DNA from: Parasphingopyxis sp. | Lineage (GTDB): Bacteria; Pseudomonadota; Alphaproteobacteria; Sphingomonadales; Sphingomonadaceae | Assembly: GCF_028279465.1 (NCBI RefSeq) | Contig: NZ_JANQNS010000016.1 | Coordinates: 1-47,367 of the forward strand | DNA: 47,367 nt | Direction: 5' to 3' | In this document: positions 14,129 to 47,367 of the stretch, piece by piece | Numbering within the stretch: position 1 is the stretch's first letter | Layout of the letters: each line of letters starts with the position of its first letter | Made by a program: the position numbers and the translations under genes | The notes under the pieces: model-generated | What the model saw: the letters and a program-made list of their open reading frames with translations, nothing else | Told to the model about the DNA's origin: nothing | Database searches by the model: none

Positions 14129-14210
14129 CGTCACCCCAGCGAAAGCTCGGATCTCAGGCGGATAGGCACGGCGTTTGTGGCCGGAGATTCCAGCTTTCGC
14201 TGGAATGACG
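14129..14210. repeat. REP-like inverted repeat
   Basis: The spacer carries an imperfect palindrome: CGTCACCCCAGCGAAAGCTC on the left and CCAGCTTTCGCTGGAATGACG-type sequence on the right, about 80 bp in all. It has the GTCATTCC-stem form of repetitive extragenic palindromes common in alphaproteobacteria and resembles the element at 33084-33173. It lies between convergent genes and may also act in termination. Confidence 0.65.
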
Positions 14211-18970: not shown

Positions 18971-19139
18971 CCCTCTCCCCTTGTGGGAGAGGGATGTGGA
19001 GGCTTGGTCCGACCGTGTCGGGCCTAGTCGCAGCCGGGTTAGGGGTATGATTTCACGATGACGCGAAACCCCTCATCCAAGTTCGCCTAGGCGTGTTCCA
19101 CGCCAAGGCTTTCTATCCTTCTCCCACAAGGGGAGAAGG
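18971..19139. repeat. Hairpin-ended intergenic repeat, copy 1 (outside the GTA)
   Basis: A 169-bp unit between the convergent phytase and symporter genes. It begins with a hairpin of CCCTCTCCC/GGGAGAGGG arms (18971-18993) and ends with CCTTCTCCC/GGGAGAAGG arms (19117-19139). Both ends have the same centre, CTTGT on the left and its complement ACAAG on the right. An inner imperfect inverted pair (GGCCTAGTCGCAG and CATCCAAGTTCGCCTAGGC) lies between. It is the same family as the copies at 34773-39163. Confidence 0.8.
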
Positions 19140-33083: not shown

Positions 33084-33173
33084 CGTCACTCCCGCGCAGG
33101 CGGGAGTCCAGTCCGGCCCGGTCAGTTCGCGCTGCGGCCGGTGGACTGGTTTCCCGCCTGCGCGGGAATGACG
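33084..33173. repeat. REP-like inverted repeat in the GTA cluster
   Basis: An imperfect palindrome of about 90 bp: GTCACTCCCGCGCAGGCGGG then AGTCCAGTCC on the left, and GGACTGGTTTCCCGCCTGCG then CGGGAATGACG on the right. Each side also folds on itself through CCCGC/GCGGG arms. It is of the same general type as the element at 14129-14210 and lies between portal and DUF6127 genes. Confidence 0.75.
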
Positions 33174-34772: not shown

Positions 34773-35054
34773 GCTCACTCCTCTCCCATTTCTGGGAGTG
34801 AGCGGTGGTCGCCGGGTGTGCCATGCCCCCGGCATCGCACAGGTCGTGCTGGGAGCACGACCGACCCGTCGAACACCGCTCACTGAAACGAGACTTGCGA
34901 TCATGAGCTTGTCGAAGGGTCGCTAGTCGCAGTTGGAGAGGGTTTTCCGGGCGAGAAACGGCGCAGGACGGCTCCACGCTCATTACGTTCGCTCTCGGCC
35001 CCTCTCCCTGGCGACGCTGCGCGCCGCCTTTCCCTCTCCCGCGAGGGGAGAGGG
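34773..35054. repeat. Hairpin-ended intergenic repeat, copy 2 (inverted orientation)
   Basis: A 282-bp unit filling most of the gap between DUF3297 and the capsid gene. Its inner half, read on the minus strand, begins with a CCCTCTCCC/GGGAGAGGG hairpin (35032-35054) and AAAGGCGGCGCGCAGCGTCG, as in copies 3, 4 and 6. It then has the CTAGCGACCCTTCGACAAGC segment shared with copy 4. The other end is a GCTCACTC/GAGTGAGC hairpin (34773-34803). It carries an insert of about 90 bp with GTCGTGCTGGGAGCACGAC, related to the insert of copy 4. Confidence 0.75.
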
Positions 35055-35107: not shown

Positions 35108-35122
35108 AAGGAGAAGATGAAC

Positions 35123-36316
35123 ATGACAATCGAAACCAAGATGGACCCGCTCGCGGCGAGCTTTGCGGCGATGGAGCAGCCGGCGCATGAAGATGCCGCC
35201 GCGGCCGAAGATGACGCGCCAGAGGAGGATCAGGAGCAATCGCCGGCCGAGCAGGTTGCCGAACATATTGCCGCCGTAAAACGCTGGATGGATGCGCATA
35301 CGGTCGCCGCGGCGCGCCCGGCGCTCGAGGGTACGAAGTCGATGCCGCGCGGGCAGAGCGATTTCACGGCGCACTATCTGCGGCGCGGGCTGGAGACCGG
35401 CCTCGAGCGCAAGAGCTTCGACGGCACGGGCGGGCCGGCGGGCGGTTATGCCATCCCGCAGGAAATCGATGCGGTGATCGACCGGACGCTGAACGACATT
35501 TCGCCGATCCGGAGCATCGCCAATGTCGTGAAGGTCGGCAGCGCCGGTTACCGGAAACTCGTGACGACGGGCGGGACGCCCTCGGGCTGGGTCGCCGAAG
35601 ACGCCGCGCGCCCCGAAACCGATACGCCCGATTTTGCCGAGATCGCCCCGCCGATGGGCGAGCTTTACGCGAACCCCGCCGCCTCCCAGGCGATGCTCGA
35701 CGATGCGGCCTTCGATGTCGAAGCCTGGCTCGCCAGCGAGATCGCGGCCGAATTCGCCCAAGCCGAGGGCGCGGCCTTCGTATCGGGCTCCGGCACGGAC
35801 CGACCCAGGGGCTTCCTCACGGGCACGCCAACCGACGAGGCCGATGACGTCCGCGCCTTCGGAACGCTCCAATATATCGCCACCGGCACGGATGGCGGCT
35901 TCGATGCGAGCGATCCCGAATATGCGCTGGTCGATCTCGTCCAGTCGCTGCGCTCGCCCTATCGGCAGGGCGCGCACTTCGTGATGAACGCGGCGACGCT
36001 CTCGGCGATCCGCAAGTTCAAGACGGCGGACGGCGCGTTTCTCTGGCAGCCGGGCCTGATGGCGGGCCAGCCCGATACGCTGCTCGGCTATCCGATCGTC
36101 GAGGCCGACGACATGCCCGATATCGGCAGCGGCACGGACGCGATCGCCTTCGGCAATTTCAAGGCTGGCTATCTGATCGCCGAACGGGCCGAAACCGCGA
36201 TCCTGCGCGATCCGTTCAGCAACAAGCCCTTCGTCCATTTCTACGCGACGAAGCGCGTCGGCGGGCAGGTCTCGAACAGCGAGGCGATCAAGCTGCTGCG
36301 GTTTAGTGTGAGCTGA
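35123..36316 (+). CDS. GTA major capsid protein (gp5), HK97 fold
   Basis: A 397-residue capsid protein. The first 100 residues are acidic and helical (AAAEDDAPEEDQEQSPAEQV), the scaffold delta-domain removed by the protease. The shell part starts near FTAHYLRRGLETGLERKSFD with GGPAGGYAIPQEIDAVIDRT, then ISPIRSIANVVKVGSAGYRK, GEIAPPMGELYANPAASQAM-like E-loop and strands, AFVSGSGTDRPRGFLTGTP and a C-terminal YATKRVGGQVSNSEAIKLLR. This is the RcGTA capsid pattern. ATG 35123 is chosen because AAGGAG lies nine bases upstream; ATG 35117 is only three bases from it. It is the first + strand gene after the minus-strand insertion, so a separate promoter is likely but none is clear. Confidence 0.92.
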   Translation: MTIETKMDPLAASFAAMEQPAHEDAAAAEDDAPEEDQEQSPAEQVAEHIAAVKRWMDAHTVAAARPALEGTKSMPRGQSDFTAHYLRRGLETGLERKSFDGTGGPAGGYAIPQEIDAVIDRTLNDISPIRSIANVVKVGSAGYRKLVTTGGTPSGWVAEDAARPETDTPDFAEIAPPMGELYANPAASQAMLDDAAFDVEAWLASEIAAEFAQAEGAAFVSGSGTDRPRGFLTGTPTDEADDVRAFGTLQYIATGTDGGFDASDPEYALVDLVQSLRSPYRQGAHFVMNAATLSAIRKFKTADGAFLWQPGLMAGQPDTLLGYPIVEADDMPDIGSGTDAIAFGNFKAGYLIAERAETAILRDPFSNKPFVHFYATKRVGGQVSNSEAIKLLRFSVS

Positions 36317-36324
36317 TCCTGAAA

Positions 36325-36495
36325 CCCTCTCCCCTTGCGGGAGAGGGACAGGCGGCGCGTAGCGTCGCCAGGGAGAGGGGCGCAGAGCGAAGCGTAAAAG
36401 CCTCAAAGCGATACGCTTGCGGCTCACCCCTCTCCAACTTCGCCTAACCCGCTTGCGCGGGAAAGGCTGCGTATCCTCTCCCGCAAGGGGAGAGG
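36325..36495. repeat. Hairpin-ended intergenic repeat, copy 3
   Basis: A 171-bp unit after the capsid gene. The left hairpin has CCCTCTCCC/GGGAGAGGG arms (36325-36347) and the right one CCTCTCCC/GGGGAGAGG (36475-36495). The centres are mutually complementary (CTTGC on the left, GCAAG on the right). Inside are ACAGGCGGCGCGTAGCGTCG, an inner GGGAGAGGGG / CCCCTCTCC pair and the AACTTCGCCTAA segment common to the family. Confidence 0.85.
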
Positions 36496-36502
36496 ATGGC
36501 GT

Positions 36503-36546
36503 GCGCCGCGTCTTCTGTGCCTCCCCCTTCGCAGGAGGCGCGGCGC
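36503..36546 (+). promoter_or_regulatory. Two-tier hairpin before the adaptor gene
   Basis: An outer stem GCGCCGC (36503-36509) / GCGGCGC (36540-36546) encloses an inner stem GCCTCC (36519-36524) / GGAGGC (36534-36539), followed by TTTCCCC. It lies just beyond repeat copy 3 and 29 bases before the adaptor ATG, so it could pause or terminate transcription or protect the 5' end. Confidence 0.45.
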
Positions 36547-36574
36547 TTTCCCCTATATCCACGGAGCCTTTTTC

Positions 36575-36856
36575 ATGACTCCCATTCTCAAAGATCCCGA
36601 TGCGGATCTGCGTTATGCCATGCGCTGGCCGGACGCGCTGCTCGATGGCGCGACGATTGCGGCCGCCAGTTGGGCGATCGAACCCGATGAGCCTGGCGGC
36701 GTCACCGCCTCGGCCGACTTTATCGACGGCAGCGAAACCGGCGCGCGTTTCTCGGGCGGTATCGCGGGCCGCGTCTATCGCGCCGCCTGCCATATCGACC
36801 TGTCGGACGGGTGCGCGGCCGACCGCTCGCTCGTCATTCGCGTGGAGCAGGTCTGA
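36575..36856 (+). CDS. GTA fiber-tail adaptor-like protein
   Basis: A 93-residue protein with a small beta-rich pattern: LKDPDADLRYAMRWPDALLD, ATIAAASWAIEP, VTASADFIDGSETGARFSGG, then AGRVYRAACHIDLSDGCAAD and a closing RSLVIRVEQV. The 'L.DPD..L.Y...W......G..I....W' opening and the 'Y.....I..S.G...DRS..I.V' ending match phage fiber-tail-adaptor-like proteins. In sphingomonad GTA clusters such a gene commonly lies between capsid and connector. It probably forms part of the neck or head surface; the exact place is not known. GGAG sits 12 bases before the ATG. Its stop overlaps the connector start by one base (TGATG). Confidence 0.65.
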   Translation: MTPILKDPDADLRYAMRWPDALLDGATIAAASWAIEPDEPGGVTASADFIDGSETGARFSGGIAGRVYRAACHIDLSDGCAADRSLVIRVEQV

Positions 36857-37398
36857 TGGCGGCGGTCGAAGATGTGCCCGCCGCAACCGCCGTCGCGCTG
36901 GACACGGTGAAAGCCGATCTGCGCATCGCGACGGACGAAGACGATGCGCTGCTCGCCGGGCTGATCCGCACCGCGACCGGCGTCTGCGAACGCTTTGTCG
37001 GGCGGGCCCTGCTGTTGCGAGATGCGGAGGAGACGATTCCCGTATCGAGCGAATGGCGGCGGCTGACGCTGACGCCGGTCGCCGCGATCACCGGGATAAC
37101 CGGGCTGCCGGAAACGGGCGATCCCTTCGCGTTGCCGATCGACAGCTATGCGATCGATATAGATAGCAATGGGGATGGCTGGGTACGCGTGACGGCGGCC
37201 GGGCAGGCGCGCCGGGTGACGGTCGCCTATCGCGCCGGCATGGGGCCGGACTGGAATGCCGTGCCCGAACCCTTGCGCCAGGGCATTGTGCGGCTCGTCG
37301 CGCATCTCTTTACGGAGCGCGATGCGGACGAGACGGCGGGGCCGCCGGCCGCGGTCGTTGCGTTGTGGCGGCCCTGGCGGCGGATGCGGCTCCAATGA
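36856..37398 (+). CDS. GTA head-tail connector (gp6)
   Basis: A 180-residue protein of the phage head-tail connector family (gp6/HK97 gp6 type). The N-terminal helices have ALDTVKADLRIATDEDDALL, AGLIRTATGVCERFVGRALL, the typical connector opening. The middle has LTLTPVAAITGITGLPETGD and the C-terminus VAYRAGMGPDWNAVPEPLRQ, then GIVRLVAHLFTERDA. Twelve copies would sit beneath the portal and link it to the tail. The ATG at 36856 overlaps the adaptor stop by one base, and the end overlaps the DUF3168 gene by four (ATGA), so these three genes are tightly coupled. Confidence 0.85.
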   Translation: MAAVEDVPAATAVALDTVKADLRIATDEDDALLAGLIRTATGVCERFVGRALLLRDAEETIPVSSEWRRLTLTPVAAITGITGLPETGDPFALPIDSYAIDIDSNGDGWVRVTAAGQARRVTVAYRAGMGPDWNAVPEPLRQGIVRLVAHLFTERDADETAGPPAAVVALWRPWRRMRLQ

Positions 37399-37787
37399 GC
37401 ACCGAGATCGTCTTGCGCGGTGCGCTGATGGCGGCGCTGCGCGATCATGCGCCGCTCGCCGATGCGGTGAACGGCATTTATGCCGCACCCGTCATCCGCC
37501 CGGCGATCCCGTACGTTGAGCTGGGCCCGATCGCGGCGCGCGACTGGAGCACCAAGACCGAACCGGGCCGCGAGCTGCGTTTTGCGCTGTCCATCTTCGA
37601 TCAGGACGAACGCGCCGAGCGCCTCGCCGAACTGATGGCCGAGGCGGAAACCGCAATCGCCGCGCTCCCGCGCGACCTGTCCGGCTGGCGCGTCGCGAGC
37701 TGCGTCTTTCTGCGCGGCCGCGTCGACCGCAGCACCAACTCCTGGCGCGGCATCATCGATTACCGGGTGCGGATGCTGGCGGTGTGA
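37395..37787 (+). CDS. GTA DUF3168 tail-completion protein (gp8 type)
   Basis: A 130-residue protein with LRGALMAALRDHAPLADAVN, GIYAAPVIRPAIPYVELGPI, AARDWSTKTEPGRELRFALS and the closing DRSTNSWRGIIDYRVRML. These are features of DUF3168, which includes the RcGTA tail-terminator/completion protein and SPP1 gp17 relatives. A ring of it would cap the tail tube and join it to the connector. The ATG at 37395 overlaps the connector stop (ATGA). Only three bases separate its stop codon from repeat copy 4, so this is the last gene of a coupled trio. Confidence 0.85.
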   Translation: MSTEIVLRGALMAALRDHAPLADAVNGIYAAPVIRPAIPYVELGPIAARDWSTKTEPGRELRFALSIFDQDERAERLAELMAEAETAIAALPRDLSGWRVASCVFLRGRVDRSTNSWRGIIDYRVRMLAV

Positions 37788-37790
37788 CAC

Positions 37791-38034
37791 CCTCTCCCCA
37801 CCGCGGGAGAGGGAAAGGCGGCGCGCAGCGTCGCCAGAGAGAGGGGGGCAGAGCGAAGCGTAAATGCCTCGGGGCAAAGAGCTTGCAGCTTACCTCCTCT
37901 CCAATTTCGCCTAGCGATCCTTCGACAAGCTCAGGATCGCAAGGCTCCATATCAGTTCGGGGTGAACAGCGCCCCGCGCTGTTCAGATCATGCTGGGAGC
38001 ATGATCGACCTCCGAACTCCCGCAAGGGGAGAGG
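37791..38034. repeat. Hairpin-ended intergenic repeat, copy 4
   Basis: A 244-bp unit starting three bases after the DUF3168 stop. The left hairpin has CCCTCTCCC/GGGAGAGGG arms (37791-37814) and the right end CTCCCGCAAGGGGAGAGG (38017-38034). It contains AAAGGCGGCGCGCAGCGTCG, the CTCTCCAATTTCGCCTAGCG segment, CCTTCGACAAGCTCAGGATC, and an extra block of about 75 bp holding GATCATGCTGGGAGCATGATC-type dyad symmetry bounded by GTTCGG / CCGAAC. Here the two outer centres do not match, unlike copies 1, 3, 5 and 6. Confidence 0.8.
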
Positions 38035-38053
38035 AATTATCGAGGAGACAATC

Positions 38054-38461
38054 ATGGCAGCAGAAAAAGGATCGGCTTTCCTCCTGAAAGTCGGCGATGG
38101 CGGCGATCCGCCGACCTACAGCACGGTGGCGGGCATGCGCACGACGCAGCTTTCGATCAATGGCGAGCCGGTGGTCGTCACGAACAAGGATTCGGGCGGC
38201 TGGCGCGAATTGCTGAGCGGTGCGGGCGTGCGGTCCGTATCGGTGTCGGGGGCGGGCATCTTTACCGGCTCGGTGGCCGAGACGCGGCTCAAGAATAATG
38301 CGCTCGGCGGATCGCTCGACGATTATGAGCTGAGCTTCGAAAGCGGCGAGCGGATGCAGGGGCAATTCCTGATCGCCCGGCTCGACTATGCCGGCGATTT
38401 CAACGGCGAACGCAACTACACGCTGGCGCTCGAAAGTTCGGGCGCGGTGGTGAGCCTCTAA
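38054..38461 (+). CDS. GTA major tail protein (gp9)
   Basis: A 135-residue tail-tube protein: AAEKGSAFLLKVGDGGDPPT, YSTVAGMRTTQLSINGEPVV, VTNKDSGGWRELLSGAGVRS, then VSVSGAGIFTGSVAETRLKN, and an ending YAGDFNGERNYTLALESSGA. The 'VTNKDS.GWRELL.GAG..S..VSG.GIF' run is diagnostic of the TP901-1/RcGTA major tail protein family. Hexamers would stack to form the tube. GAGGAG precedes ATG 38054 by seven bases. The gene lies isolated between repeat copies 4 and 5, each directly abutting it. Confidence 0.92.
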   Translation: MAAEKGSAFLLKVGDGGDPPTYSTVAGMRTTQLSINGEPVVVTNKDSGGWRELLSGAGVRSVSVSGAGIFTGSVAETRLKNNALGGSLDDYELSFESGERMQGQFLIARLDYAGDFNGERNYTLALESSGAVVSL

Positions 38462-38462
38462 A

Positions 38463-38654
38463 CCTTCTCCCTTGATGGGAGAAGGATACGCAAACTTGCT
38501 GATCCTGAGCTTGTCGAAGGAGAAGCTAGTTGGAGTTGGATGAGGGTGATCTATCCGCTGGCTATATCGCCTACCGATGAATCACCCTCATCCAACTTCG
38601 CCTAGGCTCGTGCCTCGCCAAGGCTCCATATCCTTCTCCCATCAAGGGAGAAGG
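38463..38654. repeat. Hairpin-ended intergenic repeat, copy 5
   Basis: A 192-bp unit starting two bases after the tail-protein stop. Left (38463-38485) and right (38632-38654) hairpins share CCTTCTCCC/GGGAGAAGG arms, and the right end is an exact reverse complement of the left, including the TTGATG centre. A second, perfect 17-bp inverted pair lies inside: AGTTGGATGAGGGTGAT (38534-38550) and its complement (38581-38597). GATCCTGAGCTTGTCGAAGG is also present. Confidence 0.87.
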
Positions 38655-38671
38655 TTTGAAAGGTACCCAAT

Positions 38672-38983
38672 ATGACGAAAGCCAACCCCGCGCGTGGCGA
38701 GGCGGAGATTGTCGTTGCGGGCGAAGCGCTGCGGTTGCGGCCGAGCTTTGCCGCGTTGGTGGCCGCCGAGGAAGAGCTCGGCCCGCTGTTCGCGCTGGTC
38801 GAGCGGGCGGCGGATGGCGGGCTCAGGCTGGCCGAACTTGTCGCGCTCTTCTGGCATTGTCTCGATCCGAAGCCCGAGGCGCTGACGCGCGAGCGGTTCG
38901 GCGAGGCGCTGGCGGGGCAGGGGCTTGCCGCGCTGACCCCGGCGCTGCGCATCCTGCTTGGGCAGGTACTGCAGGGCCGATAA
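38672..38983 (+). CDS. GTA tail assembly chaperone (gp10)
   Basis: A 103-residue protein: ARGEAEIVVAGEALRLRPSF, AALVAAEEELGPLFALVERA, DGGLRLAELVALFWHCL, and ALTPALRILLGQVLQGR. The pattern 'G......G...LR...ALVA.E...G.L..L' followed by 'L..LVAL.W.C' matches the RcGTA gp10 (GTA_TAC) family. It helps tape-measure and tube assembly as a tail assembly chaperone. It starts 17 bases beyond repeat copy 5 and stops two bases before copy 6. The Shine-Dalgarno is not obvious apart from AGGGAGAAGG inside the end hairpin of copy 5. Confidence 0.82.
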   Translation: MTKANPARGEAEIVVAGEALRLRPSFAALVAAEEELGPLFALVERAADGGLRLAELVALFWHCLDPKPEALTRERFGEALAGQGLAALTPALRILLGQVLQGR

Positions 38984-38985
38984 AG

Positions 38986-39163
38986 CCCTCTCCCTTTACG
39001 GGAGAGGGAAAGACGGCGCGTAGCGTCGTCAGGGAGAGGGTACAGAGCGAACGTTTAGTGAGCGTGGAAACGCGGCGCATTGCAGCGCAGCTAAACCCTC
39101 TCTGACTGCGGCTAGGCAGCAAGCTGCCAAGCCTTCGTTGTTCTCTCCCGTAAAGGGAGAGAA
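38986..39163. repeat. Hairpin-ended intergenic repeat, copy 6
   Basis: A 178-bp unit. The left hairpin has CCCTCTCCC/GGGAGAGGG arms (38986-39008) with centre TTTACG. The right has TTCTCTCCC/GGGAGAGAA arms (39141-39163) with the complementary centre CGTAAA. Inside are AAAGACGGCGCGTAGCGTCG, shared with copies 2-4, and ACTGCGGCTAGGC. The right hairpin's GGGAGAG is also the Shine-Dalgarno for the next gene. Confidence 0.87.
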
Positions 39164-46500: not shown

Positions 46501-47367
46501 ATGCGCAAGTTCGCCATCAAAGCGGCGCTCGCGACAACCGCGCTCACCGTGGCGGCTACGCCAGCGCTGGCTCGCGATGATTCTTGGTATCTCGGCGCCG
46601 AAGCGGGTGGAACGCTGATCGGCAATGCCGATTTTGACGTTACCAACTCGGCCGGTGTGTTCACCAACAACGCGTTCAGCGTCAACACGGAGCCTGGCTT
46701 CGACGTTGGCGGTGTTCTGGGTTATGATTTCGGTTGGTTCCGTCTGGAAGCCGATGTTTCGTATCGCCGCGCTGAAGTTACTACCATTGAACAGAATCTT
46801 GGTTCGCGTCTGCCGATCGCGGGTACGCCTCGCGCCGACGGCGGTGTGAACTACAACCCAGGTGGCCCGAACGGCAACGCTCCGGGCAACCCGTTCCAGT
46901 GGAATGGCGCGCAGGGCAGCATTCGTATCCTCGCCTTCATGGTCAATGGTCTTCTCGACTTCGGTGACGATGACGGGTTCCAGGGCTATATCGGTGGTGG
47001 TGTCGGTATCGCCCGCACCAGCTTCGATGGTATCCGTACTACGGACGCCGCTCCGGTCTACACCGATGATTCGGACTCGGGCTTCGCTTGGCAACTTGTT
47101 GCCGGCGTTCGCTATCCGCTTTCCCGGAACTTCGACATTGGCGTGAAGTATCGCCTGTTTAATCACGATGATGTTGAAACGAACAGCTTCTACAGCACGT
47201 CGGACGAAACGGATATCCGGTCGCACAGTGCGCTGGTGACGCTGACCTATAACTTCGGGTCGCCGCCTCCGCCGCCTCCGCCGCCGCCACCGCCACCTCC
47301 GCCGCCGCCACCTCCGCCTCCGCCTCCGCCGCCGCCTCCGGCGTGCGAGCCGGGTCCGTTCCTGGTC
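46501..47367 (+). CDS. OmpA-like outer-membrane beta-barrel protein (cut by window end)
   Basis: At least 289 residues, open to the window edge. A signal peptide ends at ATPALA (about residue 24). It is followed by an eight-strand-type barrel (DDSWYLGAEAGGTLIGNADF, FDVGGVLGYDFGWFRLEADV, FQGYIGGGVGIARTSF, FAWQLVAGVRYPLSRNFDIG, VKYRLFNHDD and HSALVTLTYNFGS). Next come 26 consecutive prolines and then ACEPGPFLV, which is how the peptidoglycan-binding OmpA C-terminal domain begins in sphingomonads. Codon third positions have more T than neighbouring genes and the ribosome site is very strong, which suit a highly expressed envelope protein. The linker would span the periplasm between barrel and wall-binding domain. 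Confidence 0.87.
   Translation, partial: MRKFAIKAALATTALTVAATPALARDDSWYLGAEAGGTLIGNADFDVTNSAGVFTNNAFSVNTEPGFDVGGVLGYDFGWFRLEADVSYRRAEVTTIEQNLGSRLPIAGTPRADGGVNYNPGGPNGNAPGNPFQWNGAQGSIRILAFMVNGLLDFGDDDGFQGYIGGGVGIARTSFDGIRTTDAAPVYTDDSDSGFAWQLVAGVRYPLSRNFDIGVKYRLFNHDDVETNSFYSTSDETDIRSHSALVTLTYNFGSPPPPPPPPPPPPPPPPPPPPPPPPPPACEPGPFLV

Follow-up and report, generated by a model that had tools for sequence, protein, structure and literature searches.

Matched loop bases at the two ends of inverted double-hairpin repeats in sphingomonad genomes

INTRODUCTION

Miniature inverted-repeat transposable element (MITE)-type small repeats are shorter than 200 bp, lie between genes, and carry terminal inverted repeats; REPINs, which go with RAYT transposases, are inverted hairpin pairs spread across the genome. 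In this study, we analyzed an intergenic repeat of two inverted hairpin modules that recurs in a 47,367-nucleotide stretch of a Parasphingopyxis sp. genome (contig NZ_JANQNS010000016.1; "the window" below means this whole stretch) and in other sphingomonads. The closest described family is BoxC/PIT/TM_ECO of Escherichia coli and other Proteobacteria. In the sections of its description available to us (PMC4666352), BoxC/TM_ECO is an intergenic intrastrand-triplex motif, a CCCTCNCCC-loop-GGGNGAGGG hairpin followed by a G-rich third strand, and E. coli carries five inverted BoxC pairs, each joining a type A and a type B motif. REP dimers of the GTAG and CGTC families, as presented in the accessible portion of PMC3733652, are short, mostly intergenic palindromes in inverted pairs that occur as homo- and heterodimers; the partners may form two separate folds or a single large stem-loop. 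The structure of such repeats could be maintained at the level of DNA, at that of RNA, or by an enzyme.

RESULTS

The sphingomonad element consists of two inverted modules of ∼70 nt each in an architecture of ∼150 to 175 bp. In the typical module, a terminal hairpin (TCTCCC core, 5-nt loop, GGGAGA core) is followed by a second hairpin (CTTG...CTAG, of the GACTTGGCAGC..GCTGCCTAGTC type) and then by a G-rich strand, which pairs with its counterpart in the partner module. A heterodimer that joins a B module (GGGAGAGGG) to an A module (GGGAGAAGG) is one common form. Below, x denotes the fifth loop base in module sense, adjoining GGGAGA, and x' its counterpart at the far end. The original prediction, made from the window alone, held that four copies have loops that mirror each other within a copy and differ between copies. 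All four were recovered with their hairpin ends and mirrored loops as described (CTTGC/GCAAG, TTGAT/ATCAA, TTTAC/GTAAA, and CTTGT/ACAAG):

36325 to 36495, plus strand: complete two-module element; inverted repeat of 21 nt (100%); end hairpins at 36325-36347 (loop CTTGC, x = C at 36338) and 36475-36495 (loop GCAAG, x' = G at 36483).
38463 to 38654, plus strand: complete element with both ends of A type (GGGAGAAGG); inverted repeat of 39 nt (90%); loops TTGAT at 38472-38476 and ATCAA at 38641-38645; a GATCCTGAGCTTGTCGAAGG repeat inside, at 38501-38520.
38986 to 39163, plus strand: complete element; inverted repeat of 19 nt (100%); loops TTTAC at 38995-38999 and GTAAA at 39150-39154.
18971 to 19139, plus strand: complete B-A heterodimer; inverted repeat of 45 nt (80%); loops CTTGT at 18980-18984 and ACAAG at 19126-19130; left arms CCCTCTCCC/GGGAGAGGG, right arms CCTTCTCCC/GGGAGAAGG.

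Across the 3.3-Mb genome of the window, the core TCTCCC-N3-9-GGGAGA has 46 matches and the reversed control pattern none; in the window itself, a relaxed hairpin pattern matches 11 times against a mean of 2.97 in shuffled sequence. Seventeen copies in this genome are two-ended, and the whole loop matches in nine. Three copies with longer or unequal loops were dropped, leaving 14 with 5-nt loops at both ends as testable. In these, x agrees in 14 of 14 (7.3 expected under within-genome shuffling), the whole loop in 9 of 14 (3.1 expected), and loop bases 1 to 4 in 9 of 14 (5.8 expected; P = 0.007). The predicted left-right covariation is thus above chance genome-wide, and it is strongest at one base. 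The TTTAC loop belongs to a single copy (38986 to 39163) among the pattern matches of this genome.

The match extends to relatives. In the window's genus set, the whole loop matches in 18 of 28 copies (4.3 expected under pooled shuffling). The two-ended pattern is present in 41 of 60 genomes of another genus, probably Sphingopyxis and so named below, where x agrees in 47 of 68 copies among the matches listed (32.6 expected under within-genome permutation). Likeness of x declines from within an element (Sphingopyxis, 52/74; window's genus, 27/29) through ends of different elements of one genome (470/1,188 end pairs; 218/420) to ends from different genomes (2,466/9,616; 392/1,204), and the genome-level effect was matched by 1 and 18 of 2,000 shuffles. 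By genome, x agreement was 11 of 18 in G133 (5.9 expected), 8 of 10 in G136 (3.7 expected), and 3 of 8 in G051 (2.3 expected); in G145 it was 7 of 7 with 7.0 expected, because all ends there are A. Among the ends listed, x is uniform in three genomes (A in 14/14 in G145, G in 8/8 in G108, and T in 8/8 in G001). All of these figures count sequences rather than independent events, and elements within a genus are kin; tests within genomes, within ortholog groups, and on distinct states lessen the effect of kinship but leave some. In a wide set, mostly from Alphaproteobacteria, at least 69 of at least 142 pairs matched over the whole loop (13.8 expected); we did not use this set as proof, since it pools lineages that each favor certain loops and includes arrays.

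We aligned 67 unique two-module heterodimers selected by arm types, including the copy at 18971. The drawn structure pairs in 95.7% of all cells, compared with 44 to 55% in slid versions. In each of the two second hairpins, seven of nine pairs show two-sided changes, and a T-T mismatch in this hairpin is kept in 66/67 B and 62/67 A modules. In 76.1% of the heterodimers, x and x' make a standard pair, versus 36.4% after shuffling (reached in 0 of 500 shuffles), with two-sided change in 33 cells and at most 31% pairing in slid controls. All four Watson-Crick pairs occur (CG 15, UA 13, GC 10, AU 9, UG 3, GU 1, other 16). By mutual information with average product correction, x/x' ranks 13th and is the strongest link between the ends of the two modules; the 12 column pairs above it are all local, within one hairpin or loop. 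In 56 heterodimers, x agrees in 37 (13.9 expected), and other homologous positions have no left-right excess (c23, 37 versus 34.3; m25, 21 versus 20.0). Agreement holds whether the loop cores are the same (27 of 37; 10.6 expected) or different (20 of 30; 8.1 expected). Comparison shows that x tends to stay Watson-Crick complementary to its far-end counterpart while its base identity changes.

Two kinds of structure could bring x and x' into relation: two local hairpins that touch through their loops or one helix that runs from end to end. The arms are informative outside the core; the inner six arm bases are not, because the search pattern fixes them and the 67 heterodimers were selected by arm type. 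At the first outer arm pair, pairing is local in 244 of 246 ends and end-to-end in 102 of 246. In 71 of 123 sphingomonad elements, the left and right ends carry different bases, on both strands, at the first arm position beyond the core, and all 71 keep each hairpin self-paired; at the second outer pair, both hairpins are kept in 17 of 17 elements with differing ends. Over 3 nt, the outer arms differ between left and right in 102 of the 123 elements, in which x nevertheless agrees 76 times (26.7 expected on shuffling across genomes; maximum of 42 in 5,000). On comparative evidence, evolution has preserved both the terminal and the second hairpin as local structures. Since the arms pair locally and x matches even where they differ, the simplest reading is two hairpins that touch via their loops.

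Energetically, the end-to-end helix is the better structure: it is the RNAfold minimum-energy fold, instead of two hairpins, in 67 of 67 heterodimers, lying on average 15.8 kcal/mol below the local-hairpin fold, with a gap of 17.1 where x is matched and 12.7 where it is mismatched. One could therefore suppose that selection acts on an end-to-end fold, a cloverleaf of RNA or DNA with a closing helix of 20 to 23 bp that keeps x paired, the end hairpins being the other state of a switch. The arm pairing rules against this helix as the sole structure kept. In addition, alignment columns 3 and 196 form a C-A mismatch in all 67 heterodimers (a set chosen for a differing arm), and the inner positions c23 and m25 do not covary. 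We consider selection on the end-to-end fold rather unlikely.

The arms also bear on the explanation offered in the original prediction, in which either long-range pairing is kept by selection or both ends are renewed from one template. A link between the ends stands, on the within-genome permutations and on the different bases found at orthologous sites (see below); renewal of both whole ends is not supported. Against one-template renewal are the 71 elements with differing but self-paired arms and the loop cores that differ beside a matching x: in elements pairing a CTTG with a TTGA core, x agrees in 13 of 21 (6.6 expected). Double-ended rare cores such as TTTAC are the exception to differing ends. 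Palindrome gene conversion, the other copying route it named, is likewise disfavored. The whole loop was also set aside as the covarying unit, because bases 1 to 4 have no excess in Sphingopyxis and rare cores are single-ended in 30 of 33 elements; yet these bases match above chance in the window's genome.

We compared 60 Sphingopyxis elements together with ∼600 bases of flank. Orthologous pairs with both flanks conserved (∼82 to 94% identity) were found, as was one further pair with a single conserved flank. In 17 ortholog groups, x matches at 45 of 61 loci (30.3 expected on shuffling within groups) and, counting distinct states only, in 25 of 39 (16.6 expected; P = 0.0002). At least two different matched states occur in 6 of the 17 groups, including both orientation classes at site 1 (L219) and the two-locus group of the window. 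In the window's genus, the copy beside the capsid gene is C/C in the window's genome (G000) and A/A in G008, where the junction corresponding to 36325 to 36495 holds a similar element with loops CTTGA/CTTGA. At site 2 (L217), both anchors were found in 29 of 30 genomes: nine hold an element with similar interior and flanks, four another repeat family, and 16 neither. The nine x states are G/G in three (one with a 6-nt right loop), C/C in two, T/T in one, A/G in two, and C/T in one; x changes here, with TTGA retained at the A end and CTTG prevailing at the B end.

Such change in place could reflect functionless copying of x between the inverted ends, by template switching in replication or by short gene conversion. 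The ends are inverted repeats ∼100 to 170 nt apart, x is variable between species yet matched at both ends, and all four bases occur with no marked bias, as neutral copying predicts. However, the copied tract would need to include x yet spare the adjacent CTTG/TTGA difference, which persists both in the 21 mixed-core elements and at site 2, and also spare arm differences a few bases off; moreover, c23 and m25 of the same potential duplex are not homogenized. Copying of this kind thus appears unlikely.

Alternatively, masters with matching ends were amplified, each cohort with its own x, so that mismatches are decay and apparent change in place is reinsertion or replacement. Site 1 is consistent with such reuse. 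Both anchors were found in 31 of 32 genomes examined, and by eye the contents are the element in one orientation (14 genomes) or the other (8), a CGTC-type repeat doublet (6), another repeat (2), or nothing (1); of the 22 elements, 18 have a matching x. Even within one orientation the interiors are not alike, making replacement at the site possible. In addition, x is partly common across a genome, and several mismatched pairs are one step apart. In contrast, the site 2 interiors and flanks look homologous by eye in the nine genomes with their five x states, the other orientation class at site 1 has C/C, C/T, and T/T with similar adjacent flanks (by eye), and the ends are not copies of one template, given the differing sequences of A and B modules. 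We regard the cohort explanation as quite unlikely. The multiple occupancy of sites 1 and 2 itself reflects either insertion hot spots or replacement. Comparison of an empty site (G098) with occupied ones suggested a duplication of approximately ATCARTCAT, but it is shared by unrelated repeat families there and overlaps start and stop codons.

Wobble pairs offer a view of the strand on which pairing matters. On the module's own strand, second-hairpin wobble comprises 19 G-T and 4 A-C; at one well-defined pair of this hairpin, it comprises 13 G-T and no A-C, from seven gene-sense and six antisense modules. Because the modules are inverted, no single transcript would favor wobble in both. Mismatches of the transition type at x, read on the gene-sense strand, number 10 A-C and 3 G-U (95 co-directional elements, with gene directions crudely estimated), a pattern that speaks against a helix at the mRNA level, including the end-to-end fold in mRNA form. 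The crude estimate, covering 126 elements, gave 95 co-directional, 16 convergent, 12 divergent, and 3 unclear; among the four window copies it misassigned at least the one at 36327, and we therefore draw nothing from it on a terminator role at convergent genes. Since wobble follows the module's own strand and not transcription, these sequence patterns suggest that the proposed contact is probably made in single-stranded DNA.

A homodimeric protein that reads the same x on the module strand of each hairpin would also make the ends agree, without their touching. It would account for a second-hairpin constraint that tracks the module strand rather than transcription and for genomes that prefer one x, such as A in G145. 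Nevertheless, several x values share one genome yet match per element, as C and T do in the window's genome. The search, confined to Y1 transposases (present in 2 of 10 genomes), turned up no candidate protein. A protein reader is therefore highly improbable. The Y1_Tnp search (PF01797; other transposase families not searched) was negative for the window's genome and positive for 5 of 14 control genomes, leaving the RAYT partner suggested in the original prediction unsupported.

In the window, the copies between 36 and 39 kb lie in a head-tail cluster resembling that of a gene transfer agent (GTA), with Phage_capsid, gp6-like connector, gp17 tail completion, Phage_tail_2, and GTA-gp10 genes as neighbors. 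Two of the neighboring genes, and two further copies in the same cluster, are as follows:

35117 to 36316, plus strand: major capsid protein gene of the GTA-like cluster (Phage_capsid), neighboring the first copy.
38672 to 38983, plus strand: tail protein gene of the GTA-gp10 family (Phage_TAC_11), between two copies.
37790 to 38034, plus strand: composite copy with other repeats interrupting its right part; CACCGC versus CTTGC in module sense, a whole-loop mismatch, with last loop base C at both ends.
34780 to 35054, plus strand: interrupted copy with mismatched loops (ATTTCT versus CTCGC in module sense); an inserted inverted repeat (34797-34884) overlaps and then trails its left hairpin.

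A scan of the window against Rfam families gave no match at the gathering score, and no clear target duplication was seen around the window copies. A CCTTCGACAAGCTCAGGATC-type repeat, on either strand, lies inside two elements (37917-37939 and 38501-38520), and a related repeat sits alone at site 1 in G139 and G130. In the GTA cluster of G008 (L031), a similar repeat family with CCTCCCC-loop-GGGGAGG ends and inverted modules occupies places where the window's genome carries the CTCTCCC element. It lies at the junctions of gp17 with Phage_tail_2 and of GTA-gp10 with the next gene; one copy has mirrored loops (GGGAC/GTCCC), and the other has GGCAC/GTTCC. Elsewhere in the window, CGTCA...TGACG inverted repeats at 14129-14210 and 33084-33173 resemble what we take to be CGTC-tagged REP doublets, and an array of CCGCCT/CCGCCA-rich triplet repeats closes the window (47261-47348).

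DISCUSSION

Our favored explanation, which we hold tentatively and with slightly less than even confidence, is that the end loops of the element, an inverted double hairpin of BoxC/REP-like kind, touch each other and that this touching matters in single-stranded DNA. The terminal hairpins would meet at their loops, where constant TTG would face CAA and x would face x', and such contact would be of consequence during, for example, replication or mobilization by a putative enzyme rather than in mRNA. A further step, which we consider doubtful, is that x acts as a matching code: the single-stranded ends of a mobile or maintained DNA element must recognize each other in order to be processed, so that x drifts as long as the ends agree and is partly genome-wide, giving lineage "dialects."

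Several observations weigh against touching loops, besides the fold energies given above. Loop bases 1 to 4 show no excess in Sphingopyxis (37 of 68 versus 37.1 expected by within-genome permutation, among the matches listed), and rare loop cores, outside the three common types, are common to both ends in 3 of 33 elements, including the TTTAC copy of the window. x also resembles the x of other copies in the same genome, for which contact in cis alone is insufficient. When stratified by genome, the heterodimers alone give a weak signal (agreement, P = 0.063; mutual information, P = 0.034), borderline because most genomes supply few of them, and a control position, n, reached a nominal mutual information P value of 0.036 even though its agreement lies below chance (3 of 41; 9.1 expected). 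Local pairing is less consistent at the third outer arm pair: both hairpins are kept in 15 of 26 elements with differing ends. CTTG and TTGA loops pair solely with bulges or mismatches. With one supported base pair, no excess at bases 1 to 4, mostly single-ended rare cores, and these bulges, a full kissing helix is not established. In addition, the five inverted BoxC pairs of E. coli do not supply a second case of loop matching: as read by eye from Table 1 in the part of PMC4666352 available to us, none of the five matches.

Even so, a single varying base pair reports on the relation between the ends. It distinguishes local from long-range pairing and favors the DNA strand over mRNA. The question thereby becomes testable by altering one base at one or both ends. 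No description of loop covariation within a copy was found in the literature searched, including the available sections of PMC4666352.

The element shares features with each of the known systems. Its length below 200 bp, intergenic position, and terminal inverted repeats, the last carried by the window copies, are those of MITEs; it differs from them in that no autonomous partner was found (PF01797 alone was sought) and left and right arms differ in many elements. As in REPINs, hairpins stand in inverted pairs, but a Y1_Tnp gene was detected in just 2 of the 10 genomes searched. Short palindromes in inverted pairs, an intergenic location, homo- and heterodimers, and two possible folds recall the REP dimers as described in the accessible portion of PMC3733652. 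Unlike these, the element has a fixed two-module design of ∼150 to 175 bp, and the family tags are rare in the outer 8 nt of 252 sphingomonad ends (GTAG/CTAC in 4 and CGTC/GACG in 2); given the rare tags and the few Y1 transposases, we have not filed it as a REP or REPIN.

The closest resemblance is to BoxC, as far as the available sections of PMC4666352 describe it: the same CCCTCNCCC-loop-GGGNGAGGG hairpin with a G-rich strand, an intergenic location, and A-B modules. Unlike BoxC, the sphingomonad module has a second hairpin before the G-rich strand, and the spacing is mostly 35 to 38 nt versus 3 nt. In the wide set, spacings of 12 to 20 nt are common, and at least 21 ends have 3 nt. The BoxC motif itself (CCCTCNCCC N3-6 GGGNGAGGG N3 GGGNGAGGG) was found in at least 16 of 254 wide-set ends, in none of the four window copies, and in 4 of the 252 sphingomonad ends (L005, L035, L056, and L062). 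Copies in L005 (G007, position 1423) and in L035, from the window's own genome, keep the short 3-nt BoxC/TM spacing. Such 3-nt copies in the window's genus and genome may connect BoxC with the two-hairpin modules.

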